64,000 bases of DNA, from contig JACZRS010000004.1 in the NCBI GenBank assembly GCA_022574595.1, positions 1-64,000 of the forward strand, written 5' to 3'. The notes below the pieces were generated by a model. It was not told the DNA's origin, did no database searches, and was given only the letters and a program-made list of their open reading frames with translations. The DNA is from Planctomycetota bacterium (lineage in GTDB: Bacteria; Planctomycetota; Phycisphaerae; Phycisphaerales; SM1A02). A program made the translations under genes and the position numbers. Positions 4,189 through 38,491 of the stretch are shown here, one piece after another (the first letter of the stretch is position 1; each line of letters begins with the position of its first letter).

Positions 4189-4241
4189 GTGTAATCTACT
4201 CTAGAAAGACAGAAGTGATTTTGTGGTTTAAGCAAAAACAT

Positions 4242-9945: not shown

Positions 9946-9956
9946 GAGGCGCTACT

Positions 9957-14800: not shown

Positions 14801-14846
14801 AGAAATTGATTCGATTACTGCTGCGCTGAGATAGCAGCAATTGCTT

Positions 14847-16043: not shown

Positions 16044-16065
16044 TGTTATTTATGGTTATCAACAG

Positions 16066-19177: not shown

Positions 19178-19253
19178 ATTGATAAACAGAAAATATTTGC
19201 TCGATTAGTAATACAAATGACATTTTACAGTTAGATTTGAACAATACTCAGGC

Positions 19254-19955
19254 TCAAAGAGGACGAGCAGTTGCAATCTTTTCAAATCCTAATTTCTCTA
19301 TGGCTCGAATTGACGAACGGTTCCATACGCGACAATCAATATGTGCCGTACCTCCCATATCTCCGTATTTTCGCATCGCCTCGAATGCAAGTGCCCGAAT
19401 TAGACCTCGGCCTCGATATTGCGGAAATGTGAGCATTCCATAAAGTACATAGTCTTCATCCGTAAGAGGAACGAACCACTGCTCTATATACTTTCCCTTT
19501 CTAACCCACATCAAGGCAACCGTTCGTTCGTGCAGCACTCCGACATATAGCTGTCCATTCTGCTCGAACTCTTGTCGAATCGTATTTAGGTAAAAGAACC
19601 CTTCTTCATGCAGGATTGAATCAACAATATGCTGTGGTACCTCGTCAATTTGGCAGTAGTATTCGACACGCAATCCTGCAATGACAGGATAGATGGCATT
19701 GCGATTGGAGTGCTTGTATACATATTGCCTATAGTAGAACAAGCGCCGTGTGACTTTGAGAACGGCTCGCTTCCCAATGCCAAGCGCACCCCACCTGCGT
19801 TGGGCTCGCTGTAATCGAGAGATCCAAGGGCGAGAGGAATAGGAATCAACGGTTTGTAGGCTCACGAACCGTGCAGCGTCTTTCTGACCCCCTTCAACAG
19901 ATCTATTCGTTGAGACGAATAGTCCCTTGGCATTATTACGTGATTTTATCGCCAT
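19254..19955 (-). CDS. GNAT-family N-acetyltransferase
   Basis: A protein of about 233 residues with a GNAT domain in its C-terminal half. The acetyl-CoA-binding signature appears as FPQYRGRGLIRALAFEAM, followed by the terminal beta-strand/helix SIRAIEKLGFEKIA. The ATG at 19953-19955 is chosen over an upstream TTG (19970), which would add only five residues. Its location between a GT2 enzyme and the toroid-like protein suggests acylation of an amino sugar in the polysaccharide, but the substrate is unknown. Confidence 0.75.
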   Translation of the reverse strand: MAIKSRNNAKGLFVSTNRSVEGGQKDAARFVSLQTVDSYSSRPWISRLQRAQRRWGALGIGKRAVLKVTRRLFYYRQYVYKHSNRNAIYPVIAGLRVEYYCQIDEVPQHIVDSILHEEGFFYLNTIRQEFEQNGQLYVGVLHERTVALMWVRKGKYIEQWFVPLTDEDYVLYGMLTFPQYRGRGLIRALAFEAMRKYGDMGGTAHIDCRVWNRSSIRAIEKLGFEKIATARPL

Positions 19956-20116
19956 AATAAAATATTTCAATCATTACAATCGATTGACAAGCTATAAAGT
20001 GTTTCATTGTTCATTATCTAGAACGTACCTAAACTCAATTGCAGTTTGAATCGACATGCCAGCTAAGCTTACGGCTCTAAGTTTGAATCTTCGGTGATTA
20101 AGCCGCAATTGGAATT

Positions 20117-21109
20117 TTACATTTTAGGTTCTATTCGAAGCAGATGATATTTAACTGCAGCAACGGTTAATCTAACTCGGATATCACTACCTCGTTCTCC
20201 TTGCTTATCAAATACATACATAGCGGCCAATATTGGCATACGTATCAATTGCGACCCAACAAAAATAAGCCAAGTTGCCACCCACGCTAACAATCCACGA
20301 TTCTTTTTTTGAAACAGCAATAAGCTCTTTTGCTTTTGCACAAACATGCGCTCTGGAATTTGTGCAGTTGACTTTCCGCCACCTTCAATATGAATAATTC
20401 TAGATGTTGGCGTAAACACACATTTATACCCAGCTTTCCAAAATCTATAACACCAATCAGCTTCTTCCGCATAGATGAAATAATCTTCATCCATTAAGCC
20501 AACTTTTTCTATTGCGGATTTCCTGGTGAGCATAAACATGCCGGTTACTACTTCCACTTCACGTTCATCTTTGCGATCCCACCAACCCATTTCAGAACAA
20601 CCAAGCCATCGCGACTTAGCAAATTTTCGGGTAAACCCAAGTTGAGTTAGAAGAATTGTTATAGGAGAAGGAAATAGAAAGCAGGTATTTGAGATACTTA
20701 CTTCATCATCAAGAACTTGGCATCCAACTATGCCTATCTCAGGGCGTTCATCCGCAAATACTATGCACTTGTCTATTGCTTTATCCAAAACAATAGTGTC
20801 TGGGTTCAAAAGCAACACATATCTCCCTTTTGCGATACGTATTCCCTGGTTGTTTGCTCCGGCAAAGCCATTGTTTGTAGAGTTCGCTATTACTTGAACT
20901 GATGGGAACTCTGCATCAAGCATTTCACACGAATTGTCATTACTTGCATTGTCAACAACAATTATTTCGTACGAAATGTCAATACATTCAGCAAGTATGG
21001 AATTTAAACAATTACGCAAATAATCACGTGCATTCCAATTTACTATTACAATTGAAACATCACAAGTGGAAGGCTCAGCAGTCTGAATATTCTTATAGCT
21101 TTGTATCAT
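20117..21109 (-). CDS. Family 2 glycosyltransferase (GT-A fold), rhamnosyltransferase-like
   Basis: A 330-residue GT2 enzyme. It begins with VSIVIVNWNARDYLRNCL, has YEIIVVDNASND (first conserved Asp), then GRYVLLLNPDTIV (the DxD-type element) and the acceptor-side region FIYAEEADWCYRFWKAG, which is characteristic of the WbbL-type rhamnosyltransferase branch. A hydrophobic C-terminal segment (about 285-310) could attach it to the membrane. With RmlD in the same operon, transfer of rhamnose is a reasonable inference. The start overlaps the FemAB-like gene stop by 4 bp. Confidence 0.85.
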   Translation of the reverse strand: MIQSYKNIQTAEPSTCDVSIVIVNWNARDYLRNCLNSILAECIDISYEIIVVDNASNDNSCEMLDAEFPSVQVIANSTNNGFAGANNQGIRIAKGRYVLLLNPDTIVLDKAIDKCIVFADERPEIGIVGCQVLDDEVSISNTCFLFPSPITILLTQLGFTRKFAKSRWLGCSEMGWWDRKDEREVEVVTGMFMLTRKSAIEKVGLMDEDYFIYAEEADWCYRFWKAGYKCVFTPTSRIIHIEGGGKSTAQIPERMFVQKQKSLLLFQKKNRGLLAWVATWLIFVGSQLIRMPILAAMYVFDKQGERGSDIRVRLTVAAVKYHLLRIEPKM

Positions 21110-22176
21110 TTAGCACGCTGAACAACGCGAGATTTCTTACGTTCTTGACGCTTGTAATGTAAATCAACTGCTCTTTGCATTACATTACCCATTACTCCCG
21201 ATGGCGTTGCTTCAAATACCCCAGGTGAAAATACATCTTTCCCGCCCAATCCTTTCTTGAAATGATATACACCGGGGTTGGTGATCGGGTCAATTCCTCC
21301 GAGGTCATACCACCTGAAGCCTCGCTCCTTTGCAGTTGTAATTGCATTCCATTGGAGCATGTATGAAGCTTTTGTTTTTAAGCCTTCTTTTTCTGTAGCT
21401 CCTAGAAGATAAATGCAAGTATCTCCTAGCATACTAGTAACCTCGCCAGCAACTACATGCCCATTTATCTCTGCAAGCGCAACATCAAAGCGACATGCAT
21501 GGTCATTACTTTGTTGCACAGAAGCAAAGAACTCAGCATCAAGATCAACTGAAAACTGTTTGTGCTTGATGAAGGTATTAAACAGTTCGCTAAATTCTTG
21601 CATTATCTCAGAGCTGTTGCCTGTGCGAATTGTTAAACCGTTTCTTTGAGCTTGATTTAGGCAGTTACGCCATTTTTGAGCCAATTGTGAACGAAGAGTT
21701 TCCTCTGGGTAGTTTAGATCAACGATTAATGTTCGCTCTTGCTGTACGTTGGTAGCTCTTGTGAATCCAATTTCCGCAAGTGGAGCATTAATATTTTCGC
21801 TTAGAATCGGTTCACGAAGGGCTGGTTGAATGTCAACTCTAAGTAACAGGTTGCGTCGCTTTACAAATTCATCTCGCAAAGCATTCATGCACAGGAAATA
21901 CCTTGAGTGATGATCCGATTTATCTTGCCAAACAATCGGCCCCCAACTCACATAAGCCAATCCACCTAAACCTAACGGCACGTTTTTGACTCGTACATTC
22001 GCTAAACCCAGCAATTCGCCATCACCTTCAATAACCACATTTACGCTTATGGCTCTACGGCGTTCCGCTAATGCATTAGCGTACACCCAATCCTGTCTGT
22101 AGCTAAAGTCACTAAATCGCTTAACCAATGTTAACCATTGTTTGCGATCAATCGATTTTACTGTTAACTGATTCAT
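21106..22176 (-). CDS. FemAB/GNAT-like acyltransferase of the polysaccharide system
   Basis: A 356-residue protein of the FemAB-like double-GNAT family (lipid II-dependent aminoacyltransferase relatives). Conserved parts are EETLRSQLAQKWRNCLNQAQRNG (split here: about residues 150-172), a central GEVTSMLGDTCIYLLGAT strand-turn and the C-terminal WYDLGGIDPITNPGVYHFKKGLGG. Genes of this family are regular partners of exosortase A loci, where they are annotated as FemAB-family PEP-CTERM-associated proteins. The likely role is adding an amino-acyl or acyl group to a polysaccharide precursor; this is inferred. Confidence 0.8.
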   Translation of the reverse strand: MNQLTVKSIDRKQWLTLVKRFSDFSYRQDWVYANALAERRRAISVNVVIEGDGELLGLANVRVKNVPLGLGGLAYVSWGPIVWQDKSDHHSRYFLCMNALRDEFVKRRNLLLRVDIQPALREPILSENINAPLAEIGFTRATNVQQERTLIVDLNYPEETLRSQLAQKWRNCLNQAQRNGLTIRTGNSSEIMQEFSELFNTFIKHKQFSVDLDAEFFASVQQSNDHACRFDVALAEINGHVVAGEVTSMLGDTCIYLLGATEKEGLKTKASYMLQWNAITTAKERGFRWYDLGGIDPITNPGVYHFKKGLGGKDVFSPGVFEATPSGVMGNVMQRAVDLHYKRQERKKSRVVQRAK

Positions 22177-22205
22177 CTACTATTTAGCTTTGCTTAAAGT
22201 AAGAA

Positions 22206-22868
22206 TTAGCGAAGGCGCTTTGCAAGCAATTTGGATCTTCGGATTGATCTAAAGATCATTCCTTCATTGTTATCAATCAATTCAGCAATGCTTTTTGCAT
22301 TGTCATCACAGGTAACAGTATTGCGTGCTTGCAGCCAATCGTTCTCGTTTGCATTGCCTCGATCACTTGTATAAACATGTTTGAATCCTGCTTGTTTTAG
22401 TGTTTTTAGCGCCCGTCTGTCGTATTCGCCAAATGGGCACGCAGCATTCTTGATATTCTGGTTAATGATGTTTTGAAGTTTTTCTCTAGCCACAAAGAGT
22501 TCTTCCTTCAGATCACCATTTTTCGCTGCTCGCCAGGAGCAATGGTTCATTCCATGTAAGCCGATCTTCAGACCCGCTTCTAATAATGAGCGAATGTATT
22601 CTGCATTTAGATAATTTGGCTTATCTACAAAACCAGCTAACACAAAGAATTCAGCCACTAAATCTCTTTCTATTAGAGCTGGCAGTGCTAACTTCACATC
22701 TGAAATATTTCCGTCATCAAATGTCAGCCTAACATTCGGCCGATCCTTAACCAAATCCAAGATGGATAGAAAATTCTTTTCCGAAATCCATACTTGCTGT
22801 TCGCCAGGTTCCAGATGTCTTTGGGGCAGGCCAATCCCGTGAAACGTCAAATTAATGATCGTGCTCAT
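22206..22868 (-). CDS. Polysaccharide deacetylase (NodB homology domain)
   Basis: A 220-residue protein with NodB-type carbohydrate esterase 4 motifs: LTFDDGNIS (the two Asp residues of motif 1, about residue 43), EFFVLAGFVD, and GLHGMNHCSW, corresponding to the H-x3-5-H metal-binding motif 2. The C-terminal half has CPFGEYDRRALKTLKQAGF, the motif 3/4 region. It has no signal peptide and so would act in the cytoplasm on a lipid-linked or nucleotide-linked N-acetyl sugar, or be membrane associated. Deacetylases of this family accompany exosortase polysaccharide loci. It is shorter than the DUF3473 type found in XrtA systems. Confidence 0.8.
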   Translation of the reverse strand: MSTIINLTFHGIGLPQRHLEPGEQQVWISEKNFLSILDLVKDRPNVRLTFDDGNISDVKLALPALIERDLVAEFFVLAGFVDKPNYLNAEYIRSLLEAGLKIGLHGMNHCSWRAAKNGDLKEELFVAREKLQNIINQNIKNAACPFGEYDRRALKTLKQAGFKHVYTSDRGNANENDWLQARNTVTCDDNAKSIAELIDNNEGMIFRSIRRSKLLAKRLR

Positions 22869-22924
22869 GTAGTATTTGTTACTAGTAAGGCGTATATCTC
22901 GGGAAGAGATGGTATAGCCGTTTA

Positions 22925-24337
22925 TTAAGAATGCGATCTACTAATTCCAACGCAAGGAGGATTTGCAAATGAATGTCGCGTCCTAGACAATGGAGTAGAC
23001 AAAGCTGTTGAAGCAATTCTAGTTTTCCTTGTTGGTGTTAGGCTACCAATAATTGCAAGTAGCAAAAACCAGATCACATAAATTTGTCCGAAATACGAAA
23101 CTGCAAGAAAGACTATTGTGTGTACAAATAGAGCGACGCCTAACGACCAGCCTAACACCATTTTTGCGTGGTCATTTTGCATGGATCGCCAAATCCTTCC
23201 TACATTTGAAAAAGCAATAACCAAAGATAAAACAAATAGTGTAAGAGTTGCGATTCCTCCTCTTACACTTTCTAGCACATACTGGTTTGTTACATCAGCT
23301 AATCCCCAACCCCAATGGGCTGTCGAGGTAGTTCCCAGCAGCCACCATTCGCCAACTCTATTGATTGCTTGGTCTATAAGGTAGTATCGATGCCAACCTG
23401 TGGATCCACCTACAAGATCTATTCTTGATATTAGGTGCCACACGGGTGCATTCATAATTAGATGCAGACCGACAAGTACTATTAGTACTCCGGCGCAGAT
23501 CCACCGCATCCAGTGCCTTAAGAACCACATTGCGGCTCCTATGCAGGCAACTGCAACAGCCATCATTGGTGTACTTGAAGCACAAGCAAAGATAATCAAA
23601 CTGCATGCACCTAAGCTCACAATTGAGCACATTCTCCACTTAACAGAACTAGAATAACTAGCAGCAATCATTGGCAATAGTGATGCCCAAAAGCAACCTG
23701 CAAGAATGGGATGTGAAAATGCTCCCTGGCATCTCAATTTACCTTGTCGAATAACCGTAATCTCAGGCACGCCCCCGAAAATTGAAAACATGTTCCTTCC
23801 GGTGCTTCTTTCAATCAAGAACGCCATAGCCACAGGAACGCTAATTATTGCCAAAGCTCGTATTATTGCTAATAAATCATTCCAATCACGCACCAAAATT
23901 CGAAATAAGAAGTACATGCCCACCGCATCGAACATGAATCCAAGACGATTGATGAACGCTGCTGTGCTTGCGTGTAGCAATGTGTATGAAATTGTGCTAC
24001 TAAATGCCCACAACAATGTGACAACATCAAGTGCCTTCCACGTAAAGCTTGTCATCTCAGAACGCGTAAATACTCGAATCCAACCAAATATCACAAGCAC
24101 GCGCAATAGATTGAAGTCTAAGCCCATTACAACAATGCGTTGAGCCTGTGCTACAAAGCACGCCATTATTAACATCGGTATCACTGCGTATTTGCGCGGC
24201 ACAAAGAGCATGATGAGCCCTAGTACTACAACGGTCACAACACCGACAGGGTGCAGTGTCGTCTGGTTAGCCCACTCGAGTTGACCAAGTTTTGCGATAA
24301 TAAAAATCATTAATAGTCGCGACTGCAAAGCAGCCAC
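22925..24337 (-). CDS. O-antigen polymerase/ligase-like membrane protein (Wzy candidate)
   Basis: A 470-residue polytopic protein with about 11 hydrophobic segments and a larger periplasmic loop near residues 290-350 (WHLISRIDLVGGSTGWHRYYLIDQ... region) carrying Arg/His-rich elements. The layout is that of the Wzy/WaaL polymerase-ligase family, whose members join undecaprenyl-linked repeat units or attach them to an acceptor. It lies next to a Wzx-type flippase, so polymerase is the preferred reading. These proteins share little sequence, so the assignment is from topology and context. Confidence 0.75.
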   Translation of the reverse strand: MAALQSRLLMIFIIAKLGQLEWANQTTLHPVGVVTVVVLGLIMLFVPRKYAVIPMLIMACFVAQAQRIVVMGLDFNLLRVLVIFGWIRVFTRSEMTSFTWKALDVVTLLWAFSSTISYTLLHASTAAFINRLGFMFDAVGMYFLFRILVRDWNDLLAIIRALAIISVPVAMAFLIERSTGRNMFSIFGGVPEITVIRQGKLRCQGAFSHPILAGCFWASLLPMIAASYSSSVKWRMCSIVSLGACSLIIFACASSTPMMAVAVACIGAAMWFLRHWMRWICAGVLIVLVGLHLIMNAPVWHLISRIDLVGGSTGWHRYYLIDQAINRVGEWWLLGTTSTAHWGWGLADVTNQYVLESVRGGIATLTLFVLSLVIAFSNVGRIWRSMQNDHAKMVLGWSLGVALFVHTIVFLAVSYFGQIYVIWFLLLAIIGSLTPTRKTRIASTALSTPLSRTRHSFANPPCVGISRSHS

Positions 24338-24358
24338 ACAAACTAACTGATGCCTTAC

Positions 24359-25081
24359 TTAATGCGTTAGGGATTTTTCACTTTGCTTATTGATAAAACG
24401 GCTTAAGAGAGACTCAACATTGCAGTATTGTGTTAGTGGCTGGGATAAGTGTTCCAAACTAGGTAACAATTGATCCAAAGATTTTTCCCACCAACGACTG
24501 TCAAGTATCAATTGCTGAATTGATTCAGGAAATCTAAAACGCAATATCCTTGCTGGCACGCCAGCTACCACAGCGAAATCAGGAACGTCCTTTGTTACAA
24601 CCGATCCTGATCCAACAATGGCGCCAAAACCAATTCGTGAACACTTCTGTGTAATGATGACTCTTTCTGCTATCCAGCTATCGCTTTCAATTGTCAGTTC
24701 TCCAAACTGAACCGCGTCTTCATGAAGATAACCCAGATTAGCATCGAAGAAAAATGGATGGGTGGATAACCAATCGATAGGATGGTTTCTCAGAAATACC
24801 TTTATGTCACTTGCAGTCGATACATAGCGCCCCACTTTAACACCAGCAGGTAAAGCACCTGGACTCATACAAGTGCCATAGCTATATGCCCCTACACTAA
24901 CTCCGTGATACTTCTTTAATATATCGCGCGCCGTCGCTGAGTAAAAGGCACCTTTCTCCAATCGCAAGACTGCCTTCCATACAGCGCTCCGTAGATAATC
25001 ATAGCCGTATAATTTCAAAAGTATTGGAGCAAACGAACTCATGCATACTTCATTCTTACTGTATTGTTCTTGCTCACTCAT
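24359..25081 (-). CDS. Hexapeptide-repeat O-acetyltransferase (left-handed beta-helix)
   Basis: A 240-residue acyltransferase of the CatB/LacA/maltose-acetyltransferase superfamily. It has the hexapeptide-turn region around residues 55-175 (VGRYVSTASDIKVF, IGFGAIVGSGSVVTKDVPDF, AVVAGVPARILRFR), which forms the beta-helix and CoA-binding coil. The usual catalytic His is probably in FLRNHPIDWLSTHPFF. It is likely to transfer acetyl from acetyl-CoA to a hydroxyl of a sugar residue in the cytoplasm. It lies between the flippase and the polymerase genes. Confidence 0.82.
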   Translation of the reverse strand: MSEQEQYSKNEVCMSSFAPILLKLYGYDYLRSAVWKAVLRLEKGAFYSATARDILKKYHGVSVGAYSYGTCMSPGALPAGVKVGRYVSTASDIKVFLRNHPIDWLSTHPFFFDANLGYLHEDAVQFGELTIESDSWIAERVIITQKCSRIGFGAIVGSGSVVTKDVPDFAVVAGVPARILRFRFPESIQQLILDSRWWEKSLDQLLPSLEHLSQPLTQYCNVESLLSRFINKQSEKSLTH

Positions 25082-25115
25082 ACTAAATTACAAAGAAAAT
25101 AGTTTGCCCAATCGT

Positions 25116-26603
25116 TCATTTTCGTTGCGCAATATCATTAATAGCAACGGCGTCTGATTGAATAGCAATACTTTTCTTACGAACAATGCTAATTGCACGT
25201 GATAATTCCGTACGCAAATCTGATATACTTAACATACTAAGCAAGACACAAATTAACATTGCTGTAGAAATACCAATTACAACCCCCCAATTAGTCCCAA
25301 TCTCTAGCAATGAAGTAATTGCTGCTGTCAGTGCTATCCATAAACCGGATAAGATAAATGGCCATGCTATTAGTCCGAATGCAATTCTTTGGCGGCGCGC
25401 TAATCGAATCATTGAATAAAGCAATGCAATTATTTCACCTAGACATCCTGCTGCAGCGATCCACATAAGTTCGTAATCCATCACTGCAGCTATTACCGCG
25501 ATACTCAGAGTGCTGTTACGCCACATATTTGAGTACATAAGATTTTTTGTATCACCCAATGCCATTGCAGCAAGAATTGGAACAACACGTAAAAGCCTTA
25601 CTGCCTGCATAATCACCAGCCATACTAGGAAAGAGTTTACCGCTGAATACTTTTCGCCATAAATCAGAATGATTAGAGGAAACGCACTTATTATTAGTAC
25701 AACTGCAATACAGCTACTAATCAATGCTAGTGCAATACCGCTTTGGCGATATCTTTGGCAAAATGCTTCATGGTCATCTTGTACTCTAGAAAACAAGGGT
25801 AACATCAATGCAGATGCGCTGCGCGTTATCAACATCTTTGGAGCTTGTAGTAAAGCAAATGCGACTGAGTAGACACCAAGCTCTCCCATTGTATACCATG
25901 TTCCCACTATTACTCGATCACCATGAAATATTCCAAATATCAATAATCCATTAACAAGTAGCGGCCACCCGAATGACAGAAATCGCATTAGGTAATTAAT
26001 ATTAAATGTAATTCTATAAGGTCGCTTAGCGACAATATGAGATCCAATTACTGTTGAAACTGCCTGTGCAATAACTAACCATAAGACTGCGGAATAATCT
26101 CCAAGCCACGTAGCTATTGGCCAGGCTGCAATTGCAATTATCAATTGCGGAAATACTTCAACAAATACTGTTGCTTTGAAACGGAGTTGGCGTTCTAGCC
26201 TTCGGCAATCAGTGTGTGTGAAACCTTTAACGATGGGTACTATTGCTAAACACCTAAATGCCCAAATAGCATCTGGCACATCAAATAGCAGACCGATCAA
26301 TCCTGCAGAGAAGAAGATTATTGCACCTACAATCAATCCACGGATAGCGAGCAATAAATGTGCGGCACCTTGAAATGGCTTCTCTTCCCCATCACGCGCT
26401 TGAACAAGCAATCTATCTATTCCAAGATCGCCAAGCATTGTAAGAAATGCAATGGTTACTAAGAATGTAGCAGCAATTCCAAAGTCTTCCTTGCTCAGCA
26501 AGTTAGCCAATATTGCGATTCGCGTGAAAGCTAGCCCTTGAGCTACTACATTACCTCCTGTTACCGTAAATACGCCTTTTACTACTTTTTGTCTAAGTGA
26601 CAT
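25116..26603 (-). CDS. Lipopolysaccharide/exopolysaccharide flippase (Wzx-like, MOP superfamily)
   Basis: A 495-residue protein with 12-14 membrane segments, starting with a cytoplasmic basic tract and the characteristic first helix (VVKGVFTVTGGNVVAQGLAF, residues about 7-26). The family moves undecaprenyl-linked repeat units from the inner to the outer face of the membrane. Features typical of Wzx/polysaccharide_synt types include ILANLLSKEDFGIAATFLV and a Gly-rich second helix. It supports a Wzx/Wzy-dependent assembly route with the neighbouring polymerase candidate. Confidence 0.85.
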   Translation of the reverse strand: MSLRQKVVKGVFTVTGGNVVAQGLAFTRIAILANLLSKEDFGIAATFLVTIAFLTMLGDLGIDRLLVQARDGEEKPFQGAAHLLLAIRGLIVGAIIFFSAGLIGLLFDVPDAIWAFRCLAIVPIVKGFTHTDCRRLERQLRFKATVFVEVFPQLIIAIAAWPIATWLGDYSAVLWLVIAQAVSTVIGSHIVAKRPYRITFNINYLMRFLSFGWPLLVNGLLIFGIFHGDRVIVGTWYTMGELGVYSVAFALLQAPKMLITRSASALMLPLFSRVQDDHEAFCQRYRQSGIALALISSCIAVVLIISAFPLIILIYGEKYSAVNSFLVWLVIMQAVRLLRVVPILAAMALGDTKNLMYSNMWRNSTLSIAVIAAVMDYELMWIAAAGCLGEIIALLYSMIRLARRQRIAFGLIAWPFILSGLWIALTAAITSLLEIGTNWGVVIGISTAMLICVLLSMLSISDLRTELSRAISIVRKKSIAIQSDAVAINDIAQRK

Positions 26604-26686
26604 TATAATTATTGCAATCTTACAAATTCTTTAAGACCAGCTGTAAACCTCACACAGATCTGGATACACCCAATGATAATGGTATT

Positions 26687-27547
26687 TCAGTAACCATATT
26701 TAGCTAAGCGTTTTTTAACTTTCTGAGAAAACGACACTAGTTTCTCATCATGTCTATATGCATATGCCCTATCTGAATTCAAATTTTTTGCCGCCTGGCT
26801 TAACAACTCTGGAGATGCATCAAGCTCACAAAAACTATTTAAAGAGCTTAGGTAATCAACTGGATTCTTGAGTAGATCTTCGAAGCGTATCTGCATTGCA
26901 TGATCTCCGTTCATTCCAACGTGCTTTGAAGCTTCCTGGCAATATTCTTCCCACAGTGAAAATCCACCATCCAATGTAGAGCAACGCAACATCGAAATGA
27001 GACCATAATTTTGCCAGTGGCGTCGAGGCAACATTACTCGAATACCTGGTTTCCCAAATTTAGAATGTCTTCGCCTAAGTACTAGATCGGTGCGGACTTT
27101 TAAACTCTGTGCTACATCAACACCATTCCGGGTAATGTGAATTACTTTCGCACCAGGGAACAACCTCAACCAAAGTGGTAGCGTGAATGTATTTCTAGGA
27201 TCCTTCCAACCCCAATGCTCTGCAATGTTGAATAGAGTTCTATATCTTAAGTATTTTATCATTCCAAAATAAGACTTAATCCTTGGTGATGACAATGAGA
27301 AGCGTATATATTCTTCGACACAAGCACATATATCTTCTGAATCGAATAAATCACGAACTGAATTTGGATTTTCCCAAGAAGCACCACATTGAACAAAGGT
27401 CCAGATATTGAGTTGCTGAAAGAAATTTGCTTCGTTCTCTCCTGTCTTAGACTGACCTACAAATAAGCCAAGCGTCTCCAATGCTTTGCAGAGGGCAGTC
27501 GTCCCTGACCGATGCATACCGATGATAATTATGGGTTGATGTTTCAC
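26687..27547 (-). CDS. PAPS-dependent sulfotransferase
   Basis: A 286-residue protein that opens with the 5'-phosphosulfate-binding loop IIIIGMHRSGTTALCKAL (residues 6-23), which binds the cofactor PAPS. The second cofactor element (3'-phosphate-binding) is at FPGAKVIHITRNGVDVAQSL, near residue 130. It would sulfate a hydroxyl of a sugar residue, making the polymer anionic. The start is a GTG (27545-27547). It is one of three intact sulfotransferases in this block; no PAPS-synthesis genes are in the window. Confidence 0.85.
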   Translation of the reverse strand: MKHQPIIIIGMHRSGTTALCKALETLGLFVGQSKTGENEANFFQQLNIWTFVQCGASWENPNSVRDLFDSEDICACVEEYIRFSLSSPRIKSYFGMIKYLRYRTLFNIAEHWGWKDPRNTFTLPLWLRLFPGAKVIHITRNGVDVAQSLKVRTDLVLRRRHSKFGKPGIRVMLPRRHWQNYGLISMLRCSTLDGGFSLWEEYCQEASKHVGMNGDHAMQIRFEDLLKNPVDYLSSLNSFCELDASPELLSQAAKNLNSDRAYAYRHDEKLVSFSQKVKKRLAKYGY

Positions 27548-27599
27548 AGATTATTTGCAATTAATTTAGCTAGCCAAATTCGAAAAGACTTCATTTAGC

Positions 27600-27921
27600 T
27601 TAATTATTATTATCACTAGCATCTAAGATATTGGTGATTGCCTCAGTCTCTTCATTGTTCTGTTCAAACCAGAATGAACCACCACCTTGCGAAACGTCAG
27701 GCTTGTGAGTGTCGAAGGCAGAGCCTATTAGACAATATGCCAAGTGTGCAATCCTGTATTCGTTTGTAAAATCCTCACATCCGGCGAAACTAAGCCGTTC
27801 GTAATAAGCATCGCCAAACCCAGAGTCATTGTGCAATCGACTAAGATCATTTCACGACTCTGCGTATGGAGTACGCGCGAATTGTGTAGCACACTATTCA
27901 ATACAATTCGCATCACAGCGG
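27600..27921 (-). pseudogene. Decayed 3' fragment of a FemAB/CelD-like acyltransferase
   Basis: The 27600-27836 frame encodes SGFGDAYYERLSFAGCEDF, which matches the C-terminal motif of the two intact relatives: LGFGDASYKRLHATQ in 29121-30452 and FGFGNAQYKRSYCDD in 32420-33637. Upstream of this motif the frame is closed by a TGA six codons before the TTG at 27836. The expected preceding helix seems to continue in another frame (VLNSVLHNSRVL, 27728-27931 frame). The rest of the gene is gone. This looks like the remnant of a third copy of the acyltransferase, between two sulfotransferase genes. The match is short, so confidence is moderate. Confidence 0.5.
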
Positions 27922-28968
27922 CTATTTCCAAGCTGTGTCATCATAGAATTCGTAATAGACCGGCTCGACTTCATTACGAAGTTGTGAAATTTCACGTTTC
28001 GTCAACTTCCCTACCCAATCCGTAGTAAGTGCTCGACTATCCCTCTCAAGCCAGTGTGTTGCACCAGCAGGACGCTGTTTACCACTGGATCTGGTGAGTG
28101 AATCGATCACTCTCTCCGTCTTAACTCCTATAGGCATTCCCAACTTGGCAAACAGTTTCTTAAACTCAGGGAGTGGGTTTGTCGCAAAATCTTCATGCCG
28201 AATAAAGATCCAGCCAGGGTGATTCTTGCGGTATTCAGAGACCACATGATTTAGGATGCTCCATAAAAGTCCAACTTCTGTCATCAAGTCCGCCTTAGAC
28301 CTCAAAGCTAGCTCCATGCGATCTCGAAAGGGCTCAAGCATGTCCCGCATCAATAGTTCCTGATCAAGCAACTCTCGAAAATTAAAACGCCATCCACGCT
28401 TCTTAAGGCTGTATGCAAAACCAGCGGGATGCCGGATCATAACCACAATTTGCATTCCAAAGTGTCTCTCCAGCCACTCGCTAGACATAAGTGCAACCGG
28501 ATCCTTCACAACCGCGCGCAGCTGCCTTTTGCGATTGAGAATGAGTAGGAAACACTGTCGCGCAAGGCTTTTAACGTCCCGAAACGACTTTGTTTGACGA
28601 ATCACACGAAGTTCTGCTTGAAGCACATAGTGAAAGCGGAGTGCACTCTCGATGTATTCAAAATACTCTTCCCCATTTTCCTCGCACAAGTATTTAAACC
28701 AATTTTCGCACCAAGCACCTCGTACGCCGGGTCTACTCCAGTGGCAATTAAACGGCTCATGGATGTAGGCCATGCCCTTTGCCGAAGCCAGTATGCGCCC
28801 AACCCATGTCGTCCCCGATCGATGAGCGCCTGTCACTAGTATGGGTGATGATGACTCTCGACTCTTCACCGCCCGTGGTGTTGACTCGGTTGAGATATCA
28901 ACTTCTTCCACACTTAGAGTAGGTATAGTATTTCTATCCTGATTCTTATTGAACGATTCATTCTTCAT
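27922..28968 (-). CDS. PAPS-dependent sulfotransferase
   Basis: A protein of about 348 residues if started at the ATG at 28966-28968 (MKNESFNKNQ). The PAPS-binding loop is PILVTGAHRSGTTWVGRIL, followed by AYIHEPFN, which is the form seen in carbohydrate sulfotransferases. The 3'-phosphate motif is at IVVMIRHPAGFAYSL near residue 175 of the longer frame. The open frame continues 27 codons upstream to 29049, but that part is a piece of another sulfotransferase (see next entry), so I prefer the internal ATG, which has GGGAAG about 10 nt upstream. Role as for the other sulfotransferases: sulfation of the polysaccharide. Confidence 0.8.
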   Translation of the reverse strand: MKNESFNKNQDRNTIPTLSVEEVDISTESTPRAVKSRESSSPILVTGAHRSGTTWVGRILASAKGMAYIHEPFNCHWSRPGVRGAWCENWFKYLCEENGEEYFEYIESALRFHYVLQAELRVIRQTKSFRDVKSLARQCFLLILNRKRQLRAVVKDPVALMSSEWLERHFGMQIVVMIRHPAGFAYSLKKRGWRFNFRELLDQELLMRDMLEPFRDRMELALRSKADLMTEVGLLWSILNHVVSEYRKNHPGWIFIRHEDFATNPLPEFKKLFAKLGMPIGVKTERVIDSLTRSSGKQRPAGATHWLERDSRALTTDWVGKLTKREISQLRNEVEPVYYEFYDDTAWK

Positions 28969-28992
28969 ATAAGATGCACTTCCCGACGCCCG

Positions 28993-29085
28993 CCATGGTA
29001 CCCCCAAAGTATATTGCGACTCCATGCGCTCGATGGGATTTCGCATCAAGTAAATAATCTTTGCCTCTGGAGCATGGGAGCAATA
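28993..29085 (-). pseudogene. In-frame fossil of a second sulfotransferase upstream of the intact one
   Basis: In the same frame as the sulfotransferase at 27922-28968, the codons between the TGA at 29086-29088 and about 28993 read HAPEAKIIYLMRNPIERME followed by SQYTLG. This is the canonical 3'-phosphate-binding segment of sulfotransferases (PxAKxIxLxRxPxxRxxSxY). Such a motif belongs in the middle of the enzyme, not before its PAPS loop, so this is a truncated piece of another copy left by recombination or deletion. It is probably not translated, or would form a short N-terminal extension if the TTG/ATG at 29044-29049 were used. Confidence 0.65.
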
Positions 29086-29120
29086 TCATTCATACATCAA
29101 TCACGTATAAGAAACTTATG

Positions 29121-30452
29121 CTATTGTGTACTAAGAGAACGCATGCTTCTTCTCAGGAGATGTTGTCGCCAAATGCGCTTTGTAATTCTCTTTAAGCCGA
29201 GTTTTCTTAAGGTATGTTTGGCAATCCGCAATGTAATTGAAGTGCAAGAAATGAATGTCCACTCTAAAGAAGATAGGAAACCTTTCCCATACACTTGTAT
29301 TGACAAGTCCTCTTCGATCTGAGTAGCATGAAGACGTTTATATGAAGCATCACCAAAGCCAAGATCTACTACATTCACCCCCTCTTCAGTTAATGAAGTG
29401 AGAACACGATTCATAAGAACAGTTCCAGGTGAAAACTTCTGATACTTTGGCAAGAATCCTGTAGCGAATAAAGTAAACCTATCATTCACCACAGCACCGA
29501 GGACATACGATATAAGTATGTTGTTTGACTTAAGTAAATAGCCTCTAAAACTACCAATCGAAGCAAGGGCTTGAGTAATTGTTTGCCAATGTTGGTCATT
29601 GGTAACACCTGTACCTAAAGCAGACTGGTAGGTTTGTGATACTATGGAAGCGGCATCTTCAATAAAAGGTTGCAAATCGCAAATTGAGCTGAGCATTTGC
29701 ATTTCTAATGATCCACCAAAGTATGTGGTAAGCTTTCTATCCTTCCTGCGAAAAGTGGACATTGTTTTGCTTGAATTAGTGCAATTTTCAAGTCCAGTTT
29801 CTGCATCTCGCAACTCGCGATACAAGTGGAATTCGGGTTTTAGTATAGATTTGAATCTATCCTGAAGATAATGAACAATTTTCATTGCCGCTTTGTCATT
29901 AAGTGGTATGTGCTGCAGATTTAATATATCAATTCCACCCGATTTTAATTGACAATCAAAATAATCAATAGCAGCATCAATCGAACTTGCTTTATCATTG
30001 GTTATTATTCCATCGAAAAAGATTGTCCAACAGCGCATCGAGAGAATCTCAAGTCCAATTGCCTTCAAGCAAAATACCGGACAAACAGTCTGCCTTCCTA
30101 TTAACAATGCAATAGGCTCTGCATCATCATAAACCACTATGACATGTGGTTTAGTTTTCTCATCAAATGTGTGGCACAGTTGTTGGAAAAATATATAATT
30201 TGAAAAAGGTGCATTTCTACCAAATTTATCTTCAAGGTATTGCCAGTCGCCCCGAATCTTTTCAATGTCCTCCAGAGATTTTGCTACTACTATCCTGTGC
30301 TTGCACAAAGACCCTGATTGCTGCAACTGAACAGCAGGATCAGCGATAGATTCTTTTTCAGATACTTCCGTCTTCAATTTATTTTGATCTTGTAAGTGGA
30401 GGCCATGATCCAACTGAAAATCGGAGCCTATTCCAGATATATCCGGGAACAT
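29121..30452 (-). CDS. FemAB/CelD-like GNAT acyltransferase
   Basis: A protein of about 443 residues, of the double-GNAT type annotated as 'cellulose biosynthesis protein CelD' or BcsL-like. Visible family marks are the N-terminal IRGDWQYLEDKFGRNAPFSNY, KTMSTFRRKDRKLTTYFGG and the C-terminal VDLGFGDASYKRL. The ATG at 30450-30452 is taken; a TTG two codons earlier is possible. Either start overlaps the preceding sulfotransferase by about 75 bp, an unusually long overlap. It probably attaches an acyl or amino-acyl group to a sugar; the substrate is unknown. It resembles the gene at 32420-33637. Confidence 0.72.
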   Translation of the reverse strand: MFPDISGIGSDFQLDHGLHLQDQNKLKTEVSEKESIADPAVQLQQSGSLCKHRIVVAKSLEDIEKIRGDWQYLEDKFGRNAPFSNYIFFQQLCHTFDEKTKPHVIVVYDDAEPIALLIGRQTVCPVFCLKAIGLEILSMRCWTIFFDGIITNDKASSIDAAIDYFDCQLKSGGIDILNLQHIPLNDKAAMKIVHYLQDRFKSILKPEFHLYRELRDAETGLENCTNSSKTMSTFRRKDRKLTTYFGGSLEMQMLSSICDLQPFIEDAASIVSQTYQSALGTGVTNDQHWQTITQALASIGSFRGYLLKSNNILISYVLGAVVNDRFTLFATGFLPKYQKFSPGTVLMNRVLTSLTEEGVNVVDLGFGDASYKRLHATQIEEDLSIQVYGKGFLSSLEWTFISCTSITLRIAKHTLRKLGLKRITKRIWRQHLLRRSMRSLSTQ

Positions 30453-31509
30453 TTGCAATTCGATCTCTGTTTGCTAATGCCGCGCGTGTGACGGTAAGAG
30501 GAAGTCCTAAGCAATGAAATCCGAGTGCGGCAAACGGAGTTCGCACAGGATCAATGTCATAACCTGATTGCTTCATCAACTTTCCACAGACGGTTTGAAT
30601 TTCACCTATTTCAGTCGCACTGAGCTTTTTGCGCCAACGTTGAACGGAGTTTTGTGAAATGCCACCATGCCGATTGAACGCGGAAAATGAACTGTTGAAA
30701 ATAGGCACATCAAGCATTGTCGGAGAAAAGTCCAGCGACAACCAATTTAGGAGATCGGTAACTGATTTCTTCGGCGATTCCACAATATCCTCATATCGCT
30801 GCAAATAAACTCGACTCTTGTCAAATCGTTGCTGCGCGCGCCAAGCCGCTCTGATAACGCCACGCCACAGGAGGCAATGGATCAGAATGTTGTATGACTT
30901 GTTGACGCGCCGGCGGTCTCGTTTTATCGCTGGGAGATGCTCAGGATCGCGCTCAAAGTCGAATCCACTATTATGGACTCTGATTGCCTGAGTACTTGCT
31001 ATCTCACGATACGATGCAATGATGGCGCGCGGATCGCGAACCATACATATGACTTTTGCCTTGGGATATCGCTCGAGTATCTCTGTAATCCGGAACACGT
31101 GTCGCGGTGTCTTCTCACCCCAGCGCGCTTTTCTTGCCTTAAATGCTTTCAGTCGACAATACCCTTCGAAGTATGCGTCTGCACCTTCACCTACGCTGTG
31201 AGCAGCTTGTCGGAGTTCTTCCCGCTGGATTCGACCTTTTTCGGGATCACCGGAATGGCCATATGGTCGATGTGATAGAGCCAAGAAATAGTCCTCGCAA
31301 CGCTGCAAATCGTTGGCGCTTAAAGCCTGCTGTTCACGGCCTTTCATCTCTATTCGCAGGTGATCGAAGTAGTGTGTTTCACCTGAGGTCTGAATATCCG
31401 GGTGACCGTTCAGAATTGCCTGCATTAAAGAAGTGCCAGATCGAGAGGCACCTACTATGAAAATGGGCGAGTCAGATACGACTGTCATTTGATTTTTCAG
31501 CTTAGTCAT
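30379..31509 (-). CDS. PAPS-dependent sulfotransferase
   Basis: A 376-residue enzyme with the 5'-PSB loop PIFIVGASRSGTSLMQAIL at residues 15-33 and the substrate His/Glu region SGETHYFDHL right after it. The 3'-PB region is AKVICMVRDPRAIIASYREI, followed by KSYNILIHCLLWRGV. It is longer than its neighbour at 26687-27547 and differs in sequence, so the three sulfotransferases are not recent copies and may sulfate different positions. The ATG at 31507-31509 is well supported by the motif spacing. Confidence 0.85.
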   Translation of the reverse strand: MTKLKNQMTVVSDSPIFIVGASRSGTSLMQAILNGHPDIQTSGETHYFDHLRIEMKGREQQALSANDLQRCEDYFLALSHRPYGHSGDPEKGRIQREELRQAAHSVGEGADAYFEGYCRLKAFKARKARWGEKTPRHVFRITEILERYPKAKVICMVRDPRAIIASYREIASTQAIRVHNSGFDFERDPEHLPAIKRDRRRVNKSYNILIHCLLWRGVIRAAWRAQQRFDKSRVYLQRYEDIVESPKKSVTDLLNWLSLDFSPTMLDVPIFNSSFSAFNRHGGISQNSVQRWRKKLSATEIGEIQTVCGKLMKQSGYDIDPVRTPFAALGFHCLGLPLTVTRAALANRDRIANVPGYIWNRLRFSVGSWPPLTRSK

Positions 31510-31606
31510 AGGTTTTATTAGTTATTGAAAGGGCTGGATGCGTTACCGCTCGGTTCCACAACTCTCGATTAAGCATGTTGATTCTGTTTCGACATGTGAT
31601 TAGCCA

Positions 31607-32284
31607 TCATATAGTTCGCACCATCACAATGCCCCGCCGCCCCTCATTGGCAGCGACAAACCCCCATCGCTTGAAGAATGCGCGTCCACGCTTATTGTGC
31701 CTTTCCACTATTAACGCAATAGCATCTCTTTGGTTTTCTTTTGCTCGCCCAATAGCAAACGACATGATCTTGTCAGCGTGGCCTGAACCCCGACACTCGG
31801 GTGATACTGCTATCAACTCGATCCACAAGCGGCGTTGATATTTTGGCAATGGGTATTTTGAGCCAGTCTCTTTTCTAATATATGGGCGAAGGTATTTGCT
31901 AATCGTCATTAACGAAAGGCAAGGCCGGGCAAGAACCATACGAAAGTACGCAAGCCTGTTGCCCACTCGTTCGCTTCGTTCAAGTTTCCACGTCTCCTCA
32001 TCAGTGACGAGTAGACAGAAACCCGTGATGCGTCCATTGTCTTCGACCGCCCAGCATTCTGCGCCATCGGATTTGAGCGCGGTTCTCCACCATGTTCTTT
32101 GATAACTCTCTGGACCTTGCCACCGTGGTAACCATGTAAGATTCTGTTGACATACGTGGCAAAGGGCCAATATATCCGACTCATCGTAGGTGCAATGGCG
32201 CATACTAAAGGGCTGGTTAGATTGAGTATCTGAATGTCCATGATCATGCTGCAAAGATTTTTGGATATTTATCAAACTGTTCAT
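31607..32284 (-). CDS. GNAT-family N-acetyltransferase
   Basis: A 225-residue acetyltransferase. The domain runs from about residue 25 to the end, with GRITGFCLLVTDEE as the central strands, LWIELIAVSPECRGSGHADKIM as the acetyl-CoA pyrophosphate loop (R-G-x-G) and GRAFFKRWGFVAANEGRRG as the closing strand. The N-terminal His/Gln-rich stretch (HDHGHSDTQSNQ) is not conserved. It probably acylates a sugar intermediate, judging from the operon. Confidence 0.75.
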   Translation of the reverse strand: MNSLINIQKSLQHDHGHSDTQSNQPFSMRHCTYDESDILALCHVCQQNLTWLPRWQGPESYQRTWWRTALKSDGAECWAVEDNGRITGFCLLVTDEETWKLERSERVGNRLAYFRMVLARPCLSLMTISKYLRPYIRKETGSKYPLPKYQRRLWIELIAVSPECRGSGHADKIMSFAIGRAKENQRDAIALIVERHNKRGRAFFKRWGFVAANEGRRGIVMVRTI

Positions 32285-32419
32285 TCATGACATGCTGCAT
32301 AGACCGCGCTTCAGATCAGAATCGTGATATCCACAGCAGACGACAAAAGTCGTTTCAATAGCCAAGAGCACTATGTTCTCGATTTTCATAATTTTTAGCT
32401 CGGTGATTAAAAACATCCA

Positions 32420-33637
32420 TTATTCTTTACGCTTCAACAGACGCTTACGCCATGCTTTTCGGACCTTCTGCAATGACTTTGTTGATAAAACAACGCGCCT
32501 TGTTCCCTCGTATGCCAGAGTGGATGCAGTCTTGGCCACATTCATGCACACTGCAATCAGGCCCGGACCATAGACTCTTACTGATGCCTCATGGCGGATA
32601 TCATCACAGTAACTGCGTTTATATTGCGCATTCCCAAAGCCGAAATCTATGTGGTTAATTCTTTCATCTTGACACAAGTTCTCGAGGAGTCGCGCAAGCA
32701 AAAATGTTCCGACATGGTATTTTGCTAATTCAGGAGCATATCCAGTGGTCCATGTATGAAATCTGTCTAAATACGCTATCCCATTCCAAAATGCAACAGG
32801 TTTTCTATCCACATACAATATGAAAGCTCGCATCCATCCCTTGTTCAGCGCGAGCGATACAAGTGCACGCATTTCATTATCACACTTGAATCCCCCAGCA
32901 AGCGCGTACTGATACGTCTTTGCCGCTATGACCTCAGTATCTCTCATTATTTGCTCTAGATCTGAGGGTTGGTTGAGAATCTTGATCGACCATCGCTTGT
33001 CAAATTCACTCAAGAATAACGATGTATATCTCCTAAGATTTCGTCGTGTGTTCTTGGATCTTGAATTACAATAGTCTTGATATGAAATACCGAGGTAACC
33101 TGTCCAATGCTCCACCGGAACAATGCAGTGATCTTTACTTCGAAATTGGGGAATTCGAGTAGCCTGTCTGTATATATTCGACCGTATGTCAAGATGATCC
33201 AACTGGACCACATGCACTACACGCCGGCGTAGTAGACTTAATATTTCTTCAAAGACAGCCTGGCAATGATCATCATCTAAATTCCCAAGAAATCCACCTT
33301 GAATTATCCGCAATTTGCACAGCATTGGGATCTTACGGGACAGCCTGTTAACGAAATCATTGGAACCAATTGTCTCTATTCTACCGACAACAAGTACACT
33401 AGGCTGAGAGGAATCGCCAAGTACCATTACATGCGGCCGAACAATTGTCTTTCGCACCTCATTAACCGAAAGGAATAAATCAATATCAGCGTTCGGATGC
33501 GCATGCATTTTCTGCCACACATTACGAATCGCCTCCACCTCACATACAGTCCTCGCGGTTCGGATCTGCAAGTTGGCAGGCAAGAGACCAGAGTCTCGAT
33601 CGGCTGTCGAGGTAATGTCTTGTACGATATCCATCAT
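32420..33637 (-). CDS. FemAB/CelD-like GNAT acyltransferase
   Basis: A 405-residue relative of 29121-30452. It shares the N-terminal 'IRNVWQKMHAHPNADIDLF' layout, the middle SKNTRRNLRRYTSLFLSEF and the C-terminal HIDFGFGNAQYKRSYCDD motif. The two proteins are clear homologues but not near-identical. The C-terminus is basic (KAWRKRLLKRKE), perhaps for membrane contact. Role inferred: acylation of lipid-linked sugar. There are two in-frame ATG codons at the start (33637 and 33634). Confidence 0.72.
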   Translation of the reverse strand: MMDIVQDITSTADRDSGLLPANLQIRTARTVCEVEAIRNVWQKMHAHPNADIDLFLSVNEVRKTIVRPHVMVLGDSSQPSVLVVGRIETIGSNDFVNRLSRKIPMLCKLRIIQGGFLGNLDDDHCQAVFEEILSLLRRRVVHVVQLDHLDIRSNIYRQATRIPQFRSKDHCIVPVEHWTGYLGISYQDYCNSRSKNTRRNLRRYTSLFLSEFDKRWSIKILNQPSDLEQIMRDTEVIAAKTYQYALAGGFKCDNEMRALVSLALNKGWMRAFILYVDRKPVAFWNGIAYLDRFHTWTTGYAPELAKYHVGTFLLARLLENLCQDERINHIDFGFGNAQYKRSYCDDIRHEASVRVYGPGLIAVCMNVAKTASTLAYEGTRRVVLSTKSLQKVRKAWRKRLLKRKE

Positions 33638-36883: not shown

Positions 36884-37271
36884 TACACAACTCCTTCAGG
36901 AAAACCTCAGCAGGGACTATACAGCCCCAAGCATTCCAGAGAGTCGCAATAGGAAGGCACATATGCCAGTAGTAACCTCCAATAAGAAGAATCTATTGCC
37001 TGCCTGTGTTCGCAAATCAGCTACAAATTGTGCAACCGTTTAGGCTTACGTAAATGGAGTATTTGTGAATAAATACTCAATCTACCTATCTTAACAATAT
37101 TAGTTTTTGTAAATTTGTGTTGAAAAATAAGTCTGGGCTTCGCCCCCGTCAACTGCGCGATTTCTAACTCGCTGCAGTGATAAGCCAAGAACACAAATTC
37201 TGGTCAACTCCAATGGCAATCCATTAACCTAGGGAGCCTAAAAACAACAAGAAAGGCCGATTCATTTCTCC
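36884..37271 (-). promoter_or_regulatory. 388-bp operon leader with hairpins, candidate antitermination element
   Basis: Non-coding DNA between the NusG-like gene and the first large operon gene. In minus-strand RNA it contains the terminator-like hairpin described separately (37240-37281), a small GGGC-GAA-GCCC hairpin (37135-37145) followed by TTATTTTT, and a perfect 8-bp hairpin GAGTATTT/AAATACTC (37057-37078, 6-nt loop). No ORF or promoter is convincing. RfaH/LoaP-type factors act through sequence or hairpin elements in such leaders; whether one of these is the element is not known. Confidence 0.45.
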
Positions 37272-37281
37272 TCAAATCGGC
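37240..37281 (-). terminator. Terminator-like hairpin straddling the stop codon of the NusG-like gene
   Basis: A perfect 7-bp inverted repeat GCCGATT (37275-37281 arm on the minus strand) and AATCGGC (37256-37262 arm) has a 12-nt loop containing the TGA stop of the NusG paralogue. It is followed in the transcript by CTTTCTTGTTGTTTTT. Hairpin plus U-rich tract fits an intrinsic terminator placed between a regulator and the operon that it probably controls. Confidence 0.6.
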
Positions 37282-37817
37282 TCGATTAAATCTGCATCAA
37301 TCTCCAATAGAGCCGCCTGCCCTAGAGTGCGAATTTGAAGCGCTAAACGACTCGGACCTAGACGGCTGGAAACTACACCCTCGATCCCCTGGAATGGTCC
37401 GCTAAGAACTCGGCAGTGTCTTCCAACGACCGCAAATGGGTAAAGATCAAGTGAGGCTTGGCCAGTGAGCGCGCGTTCAATATGGGCAATCTCATTTGCA
37501 AACTGCTCTTGATCAGGAACTTCAATAATGCTGCAAACTCGCTTGGTAGAGACTGCTTCGTACGCAGTTTCCAGTTCAGAATCCAGAAATACATAACTTG
37601 GAAAAAGTGGAACACTAGTCCGAAATTTACGCCCGCCTATAAAATGAACCCTTTGGACTAGAGGCAAGAAGAATCGCACACCCATAGAGTCAAGAAAGCG
37701 TCCTAGAGCTTTTTCTTGACGAGGCTTGGTCCACAACACTCTCCACTTCTTAATTGTTGAGCATGTGAGACTTACTGGGCCATAGTCGACATTGTTATGA
37801 TGAGTGAAGGTTGTCAT
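37272..37817 (-). CDS. NusG/RfaH/LoaP-family transcription antiterminator
   Basis: A 181-residue NusG paralogue. It has an NGN domain (residues about 22-115: WRVLWTKPRQEKALGRFLDS, then FFLPLVQRVHFIGGRKF and LFPSYVFL) and a C-terminal KOW domain (VVGRHCRVLSGPFQGIEGVV, residues about 128-148). Specialised NusG paralogues (RfaH, UpxY, LoaP) bind RNA polymerase and stop premature termination in one long operon, usually from a leader element. Being first in a 34-kb minus-strand run of EPS genes is exactly that context. NusG itself is normally encoded beside secE and ribosomal genes, which are absent here. Confidence 0.88.
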   Translation of the reverse strand: MTTFTHHNNVDYGPVSLTCSTIKKWRVLWTKPRQEKALGRFLDSMGVRFFLPLVQRVHFIGGRKFRTSVPLFPSYVFLDSELETAYEAVSTKRVCSIIEVPDQEQFANEIAHIERALTGQASLDLYPFAVVGRHCRVLSGPFQGIEGVVSSRLGPSRLALQIRTLGQAALLEIDADLIEPI

Positions 37818-38491
37818 ATGTCAAGGTACCAAAAATCCATAGAGACTTTCGCGCGCAATTAATAAAGCGTGCATGTTCCAACACAAACGTTTCAAGAACG
37901 CCAATGTATAGATTTCGTACCTAGCCCCGAATCTCCGACGTTCTTCCTACCTTACTCCTAGCTTGGTGGGTTCAATGTGATTGGGACCGCAGCCCTCGCC
38001 TCATGAATCGACCACTGGAGCCTTCATTAGGATACATGGCCTAGAGCTAAACGCAAGCTCAATCCCAGTAAGAACCTAGGAGAATTCGCACAATCTGGCA
38101 TTTTTGCATTATGTGACCTCAAAGATGTAATTCTTCGCAGAAAAACGCTCTCAGACAGTAAATTTAGGCTATTTGGCAATAGGAGTGGATAGTAGTCGCT
38201 AAGTCCTTGGAGCGAAGTAATTTAAGCAAAATCACTGCCAATAAGTCATTAGCTTCTTATTTCGACATCAGCATACCAAAGTGCTTTCCCAGGGCTGACT
38301 ATTTTGAGGGTAGTAATCCAGGGTTCGATAATTCAGCATTGCTGCATTGATGATTTTATATCATCAACCTAAGCCCTTAGTCGTTAACGCAATTTACCAA
38401 ATACTAAAACATATACCACTACTTCTTTAGCAGATTTTGCACACGCAAACTTGCAGGATGCATCGAATTCCTATCAATTTGCTGCAAACGG
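37818..38491. other. 674-bp non-coding region upstream of the NusG-like gene
   Basis: No convincing ORF. It should hold the promoter of the EPS operon; a poor sigma-70-like TTGTGT-16 bp-TATTAA can be drawn on the minus strand near 37855-37885 but is not reliable. A perfect inverted repeat TTGATGAT/ATCATCAA with a TTTAT loop (38347-38367) could be an operator or the end of the 38492 transcript; no U-tract is attached. Confidence 0.4.

Follow-up and report, generated by a model that had tools for sequence, protein, structure and literature searches.

A conserved tandem-hairpin leader element that tracks a specialised NusG paralogue in Planctomycetota

A NusG paralogue at the head of a polysaccharide gene run

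The stretch of DNA analysed here, referred to throughout as the window, comprises 64,000 nucleotides on contig C18 of a Planctomycetota genome with an assembly size of 4.09 Mb, and carries a long series of genes on a single strand (Table 1). The leading gene encodes a NusG paralogue, and the genes after its leader encode products that include a flippase, glycosyltransferases, sulfotransferases, GNAT/FemAB proteins, WecG, an epimerase, an exosortase, a Wzc-like ATPase, a sugar transferase, TPR proteins and RmlD. A previous reading of the sequence alone had placed a NusG paralogue first in a single-strand run of about 34 kb, with a 388-bp leader between it and the first structural gene. Each of these points held on reanalysis, and the leader length proved exact. 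This leader and a second gap of 374 bp (27548-27921) are the largest intergenic gaps of the run, and a further same-strand gene (38492-39667) ends 674 bp upstream of the paralogue. Because of this upstream gene and the 374-bp internal gap, the run is treated only as a putative operon. Homologues of the 1024-aa gene occupy an early position in many related operons.

Table 1. Features of the window discussed in the text.
Feature	Coordinates	Strand	Evidence or remark
NusG-paralogue-led gene run	37817 down to 3277	all (-)	34.5 kb
5′-UTR block upstream of paralogue	37916..37953	(-)	strongly conserved; window, L003, L004 only
Specialised NusG paralogue (NGN + KOW), 181 aa	37272..37817	(-)	Pfam NusG E 4.5e-10
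Terminator-like hairpin over paralogue stop codon	37256..37281	(-)	U-rich tail CTTTCTTGTT
Hairpin P1, variable-sequence stem	37149..37180	(-)	folds; own versus swapped arms
28-nt core: P1 3′ arm, GAC-GG linker, P2	37131..37158	(-)	R1 36.1, R2 36.4 bits
Hairpin P2, GGGC-GAA-GCCC	37135..37145	(-)	covariation of central pair
8-bp hairpin	37057..37078	(-)	fold; sequence not conserved in L003/L004
Block GCACAATTTGTAGCYGATKTGCGAAC	37008..37033	(-)	conserved in L003, L004 only
First structural gene, 1024 aa	33809..36883	(-)	without Pfam match
Polysaccharide/exosortase genes	3277..33637	(-)

With an NGN and a KOW domain, the latter at 19.8 bits lying under the Pfam cut-off of 22.3, and with a separate housekeeping NusG in the same genome (G000:C23:153784; 162.4 bits, above cut-off), the protein belongs to the specialised NusG paralogues (NusG-SP). 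Its best NCBIfam score is that for UpxY (76.4 bits, below the cut-off of 100), and the scores for RfaH (49.5; cut-off 144.5), LoaP (33.4; cut-off 125) and nusG (27.4 versus 135.7) likewise fall short. An AlphaFold model built from 16 sequences (mean pLDDT 82.9, pTM 0.56) predicts an NGN domain and a KOW domain in beta-barrel form, which leaves room for fold switching. Among solved structures, the protein matches 8f5g best by sequence, an entry titled as a NusG-RNA complex. A second paralogue on contig C10 of the same genome, with 44% identity to that of the window, also leads polysaccharide-type genes (pyruvyl transferase, flippase, sulfotransferase and others). The analysis supports a specialised paralogue of the RfaH/LoaP/UpxY kind at the head of a long, putative polysaccharide operon whose leader is conserved. 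The housekeeping nusG gene (L242, ~153165-154314 on C23) is followed by two stand-alone KOW mini-ORFs of ~65 aa each.

A hairpin with a U-rich tract at the end of the paralogue gene had been noted from the sequence, and it is present, with the stop codon (37274-37272) in the loop of its 6-bp core. By pattern alone this hairpin is not above chance (1 found versus 2.0 expected in the stretch). It is probably real nonetheless, as evident by the compensatory changes in the equivalents at the same position in L003 (G065:C48) and L004, where AACCGATC/GATCGGTT replaces the CCGATT/AATCGG of the window.

The 37057-37078 hairpin does form the perfect 8-bp stem that had been described, with a folding z of -2.2; its sequence, whose conservation had been proposed as a check, is not kept in L003 or L004. 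Blocks 37033-37008, 37953-37916 and 37096-37083, the last with an exact match only in the window, L003 and L004, are excluded from the general element described below because they occur in these three loci only. The same three share a conserved, possibly promoter-like region at ~38030-38070 (-), upstream of the paralogue. The contig of L004 carries a Chloroflexi title, and its locus is Planctomycetota-like and nearly identical to L003, so it is likely a mis-binned MAG contig.

Searches of the leader with Rfam returned no match at the gathering score and nothing relevant at E<=10, the sole hit there being a chance one to snR13 on the opposite strand (E 4.8). Single-sequence folding gave weak signals (z +0.5 to -2.2). 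A scan for sigma-70 promoters in the leader region found 4 where 3.0 were expected, and these candidates were rejected, among them one at 37152-37124 that overlaps the element and whose first hexamer does not occur in elements of the GCGC-GAC form.

Sequence and structure of the P1-P2 element

Comparison of the leaders of related paralogue loci revealed a conserved element of ~50-60 nt that consists of a hairpin P1, a GAC-GG linker and a hairpin P2 (RGRC-GRA-GYCY). A script search found it downstream of the paralogue in 33 of 61 loci (the window, 51 others among relatives, L004, and L005-L012), the distance from the matched gene end to the core ranging from 68 to 262 nt. These 33 are called cis loci here. 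The core consensus approximates GYGC RNNY GAC NN followed by P2; core positions 1-10 form the 3′ arm of P1, which pairs across a variable loop with a 5′ arm immediately upstream. A degenerate core pattern (<=3 mismatches) matches the window's own genome twice, each time shortly downstream of one of the two paralogues, and a reversed control pattern gave no match there. The hairpin at 37135-37145 had previously been listed as one of two separate structures following the stop codon. Its coordinates are exact, and its role is revised: it constitutes the 3′ half of this widely conserved tandem-hairpin element.

Two covariance models were built, R1 from 31 of the 33 cis sequences and R2 from 69 sequences. 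In these 69, the central pair of P2 is A-U in 37, G-C in 31 and G-U in one, and the outer pair is G-U in 38. P2 cells are paired in 97.8% of cases, versus 92.9% in shuffles (0 of 500 reach the observed value) and 25-48% in slid versions. The script accepted a site only if at least three of the four pairs of P2 were formed, the closing pair was C-G and the loop was one of a restricted set, so the P2 statistics on the cis set that it found lean towards pairing. Two of the four pairs are invariant and only one is changed on both sides, which is no more than in shuffles. The thermodynamic folding of the element is unremarkable, and when P2 has the A-U pair it is not the fold of minimum energy. An outer 3-bp stem around P2 was considered and dropped, as only 62% of its cells are paired.

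The evidence for P1 comes from comparing each 3′ arm with its own 5′ arm and with arms swapped between sites. A combined set of 93 sites was assembled after setting aside L178, L115, L199 and L118, and one further site (L211) has too little upstream sequence for this test. Across the remaining 92 sites, own arms give more favourable duplex energies than swapped arms (z -5.5; 0 of 5000 permutations), and the separate subsets agree (33 cis sites, z -2.9; 40 class sites, z -3.1; 19 test sites, z -2.9), with the caveat that related sequences within groups can inflate such permutation tests. Helix scores of at least 8 occur at 33 of 92 sites versus 20.5 in permuted sets, and at 32 of 82 versus 18.8 once 10 near-duplicates are removed (0 of 200 permutations in each case). 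In the test set alone the count is 8 of 19 versus 5.0, a value reached by 12 of 300 permutations. On these comparisons P1 has statistical support, though it is not visible at every site.

Distribution of the element and the genes that follow it

The element tracks the paralogue. With R1 (E<=1e-3) it was detected in 33 of 201 related genomes, all of them among the 50 that carry a paralogue, a count that is partly circular because the training set of paralogue-adjacent sites came from these genomes. A sample of 397 genomes of the class gave the same picture: the element (E<=1e-3) is present in 48 genomes, 47 of which are among the 200 with a paralogue (Fisher 2e-14), and outside the window's own order 28 of 29 element genomes have one. 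With R2, 30 of 80 class genomes that carry a paralogue have the element, versus 1 of 80 that lack one; some of the positives had contributed training sequences. Eight of 241 genomes in a phylum sample carry it, including two outside the class (G541 and G600) in which it lies just downstream of a paralogue.

The association is not complete in either direction. The element was not detected in 17 of the 50 paralogue-bearing relatives (R1) or in 50 of the 80 paralogue-positive class genomes (R2). Conversely, at the thresholds used, elements occur without a paralogue in G400 and G268 of the class and in G571 and G710 of the phylum sample, and G537 of the latter has an element but only a weak paralogue elsewhere. 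A degenerate class-wide consensus had no matches in viral contigs.

In much of the window's order the element lies behind the paralogue, and in other families it lies in trans. We assembled 33 trans sites by passing over those that directly follow a listed paralogue; two of the 33 (L181 and L188) proved to be behind one after all. The element usually stands 40-500 nt before an ORF on the same strand, often 40-150 nt before unlinked polysaccharide operons. The genes that follow match polysaccharide proteins of the window or resemble nucleotide-sugar, flippase, Wzc, WecG, exosortase or glycosyltransferase genes, several of these assignments being made by eye from the start of the sequence. The exceptions are L178, L186, L187, L115 (a giant secretin-like ORF, judged by eye) and L118. 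In G164, G124 and G153 the element comes first, followed by a LuxR-type response regulator (named by eye), the paralogue and the operon, and G460 has three element sites and one paralogue, on a different contig.

A test set of 20 sites that had entered no model (18 from the R2 class scan, plus G541 and G600) shows the same P2 architecture. Pair 16/22 is A-T in 16, G-C in three and G-T in one, pair 14/24 is G-T in 17 and G-C in three, and all 20 have a GNA loop with G-A closure. Same-strand ORFs could be scanned at 17 of these sites (66 ORFs), and the families matched include GDP_Man_Dehyd (14), Epimerase (14), Polysacc_synt_3 (7) and Epimerase_2 (3). When first or near ORFs were scanned singly, a polysaccharide-type or export gene was found near 15 of the 17 sites, with weaker assignments at L214 (ABC2_membrane), L215 (O-mannosyltransferase-like) and L222 (AAA_31/Wzc-like). 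Sites L211 and L212, from one genus (G243 and G275), precede RHS-like and RCC1-repeat genes instead. In a control of 66 ORFs from 14 random regions (of 71 ORFs and 15 regions listed, partly from the same genomes), no such family except one exosortase appears among the 25 families listed of 116 matched, the other 91 being unlisted.

A candidate antitermination pair and its alternatives

From its position, orientation, structure and co-inheritance, we infer that P1-P2 is a candidate loading site of the paralogue family. It seems fairly probable to us, judging by the conserved sequence, the covariation, the location, the co-occurrence and the polysaccharide genes around the element, that paralogue and element form a specialised antitermination pair in which the element recruits the factor for processive elongation. 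As the leader is transcribed, the NusG paralogue would recognise the tandem hairpin, most probably in the nascent transcript. It would then be loaded onto RNA polymerase and accompany it along the long polysaccharide operon, so that pauses and early termination are suppressed. Where the element usually follows the paralogue gene, as in the window's order, the factor would act on its own operon. In three genomes the element precedes a response-regulator/paralogue pair at the head of the operon, and in other families elements at the start of unlinked operons would make up an RfaH-like regulon. Intrinsic terminators downstream of the element show no clear excess (9 of 33 loci, 3.9 expected; 4 of 60, 3.8 expected), and the process opposed may be Rho action, pausing or NusA.

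The sequence-only reading had assigned the decision to a different place, with termination at the stop-codon hairpin depending on whether a ribosome reaches the stop codon, or on the factor itself. This hairpin is probably real, being kept in the closest relatives through compensatory changes, but as a general device the proposal is not supported and we consider it extremely unlikely. Of the 33 cis loci, 9 have a terminator-like hairpin with a T tract between the end of the paralogue gene and the element, where mononucleotide shuffles give 2.0; the others show no such signal, and only in the window, G065:C48 and L004 does it lie exactly over the stop codon. Moreover, a factor loaded at P1-P2 could not rescue this terminator because the hairpin is transcribed before the element. 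In the window it would be a separate, partial terminator that probably sets the entry of transcription into the operon.

The form in which the element would be read must also be weighed. C-GNA-G loops are very stable DNA mini-hairpins, and the P2 GNA hairpin might therefore be recognised in single-stranded, non-template DNA of a paused bubble, in the manner in which RfaH reads ops. RfaH recognises a small DNA hairpin, according to PMC7593976. Against this, P1 and P2 together exceed the length of a transcription bubble, and both the frequent G-U outer pair of P2 and the covariation of P1 fit RNA better than DNA. Length, G-U pairs and P1 thus favour RNA, short of proof, and leave the DNA form unlikely. 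We regard it as highly improbable that an unrelated regulator of the polysaccharide genes instead uses the element as a DNA operator or as part of a promoter, a view that could draw on the several trans sites within 40-150 nt of the first gene and on a GTAA motif that precedes the core by 39-40 nt at 12 of 60 sites. The element lies on the operon strand wherever the following gene could be assigned, both of its hairpins covary, and it follows the paralogue gene in cis loci and tracks the paralogue, all of which speak against an operator. Structured leader RNAs that promote processive antitermination are also known from phage HK022 (put, formed by tandem hairpins) and Bacillus (EAR). By analogy, the two hairpins here could act directly on RNA polymerase, with the paralogue a mere partner or neighbour. 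The few paralogue-less elements fit either account, but the strong co-occurrence of element and paralogue makes direct action very improbable. Neither put nor EAR is known to be linked to a NusG paralogue, whereas the element, which has no Rfam match, occurs here with one.

The proposed pair of paralogue and P1-P2 element resembles known systems to differing degrees. One close parallel is LoaP with the dfn/mln leader hairpin of Bacillus velezensis, likewise a specialised NusG paralogue of long operons, where PMC12691694 describes a leader RNA hairpin that is required for antitermination and a factor that antagonises NusA-dependent termination. The sequence match to 8f5g is a further point of likeness. 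The LoaP hairpin is a single one of UNCG type, whereas here the hairpins are in tandem, the P2 triloop is GRA (GAA or GGA) and the operons are for polysaccharides. RfaH, which is recruited by ops in non-template DNA (PMC7593976), controls several unlinked operons by way of a short signal in their leaders, as the paralogues here would. Its KOW domain forms an alpha-hairpin, where the model here shows a beta-barrel that may still switch fold, and the ops sequence GGCGGTAGCGTG has no match in the leader at <=2 mismatches. UpxY of Bacteroides capsule operons shares the location inside a polysaccharide operon and the best NCBIfam score. However, UpxY acts in leaders upstream of upxY (PMC7819879), whereas the present element is usually after the gene or in trans.

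We would give an even chance to one broader idea, taken as a whole: that this paralogue family, spread through the class and beyond among Planctomycetota-like bacteria, is recruited by a tandem-hairpin leader RNA with a variable P1, an invariant GA linker and a GNA-loop P2. Acting both in cis and in trans, this RNA would switch on a surface-polysaccharide regulon in which factor and element are co-inherited, and so be the equivalent in RNA of the RfaH/ops regulon. Little is known, to our knowledge, about operon regulation in Planctomycetota. In the open-licence PubMed Central set we found no paper on NusG paralogues together with Planctomycetes, none containing any of four core sequences, and none joining JUMPstart, ops, polysaccharide and Planctomycetes. 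As of 2020, the recruitment of operon-encoded NusG paralogues was described as unknown in PMC7593976. P1-P2 offers a concrete and compact candidate recruitment signal, with two separately mutable hairpins and representatives across numerous genomes. For each paralogue it predicts the operons under control, and it opens the regulation of exopolysaccharide/exosortase clusters in Planctomycetota to study.

The GTAA motif mentioned above lies just before P1 (for example at L162, L167, L190 and L221), and at non-cis sites it is a candidate promoter part or factor site.
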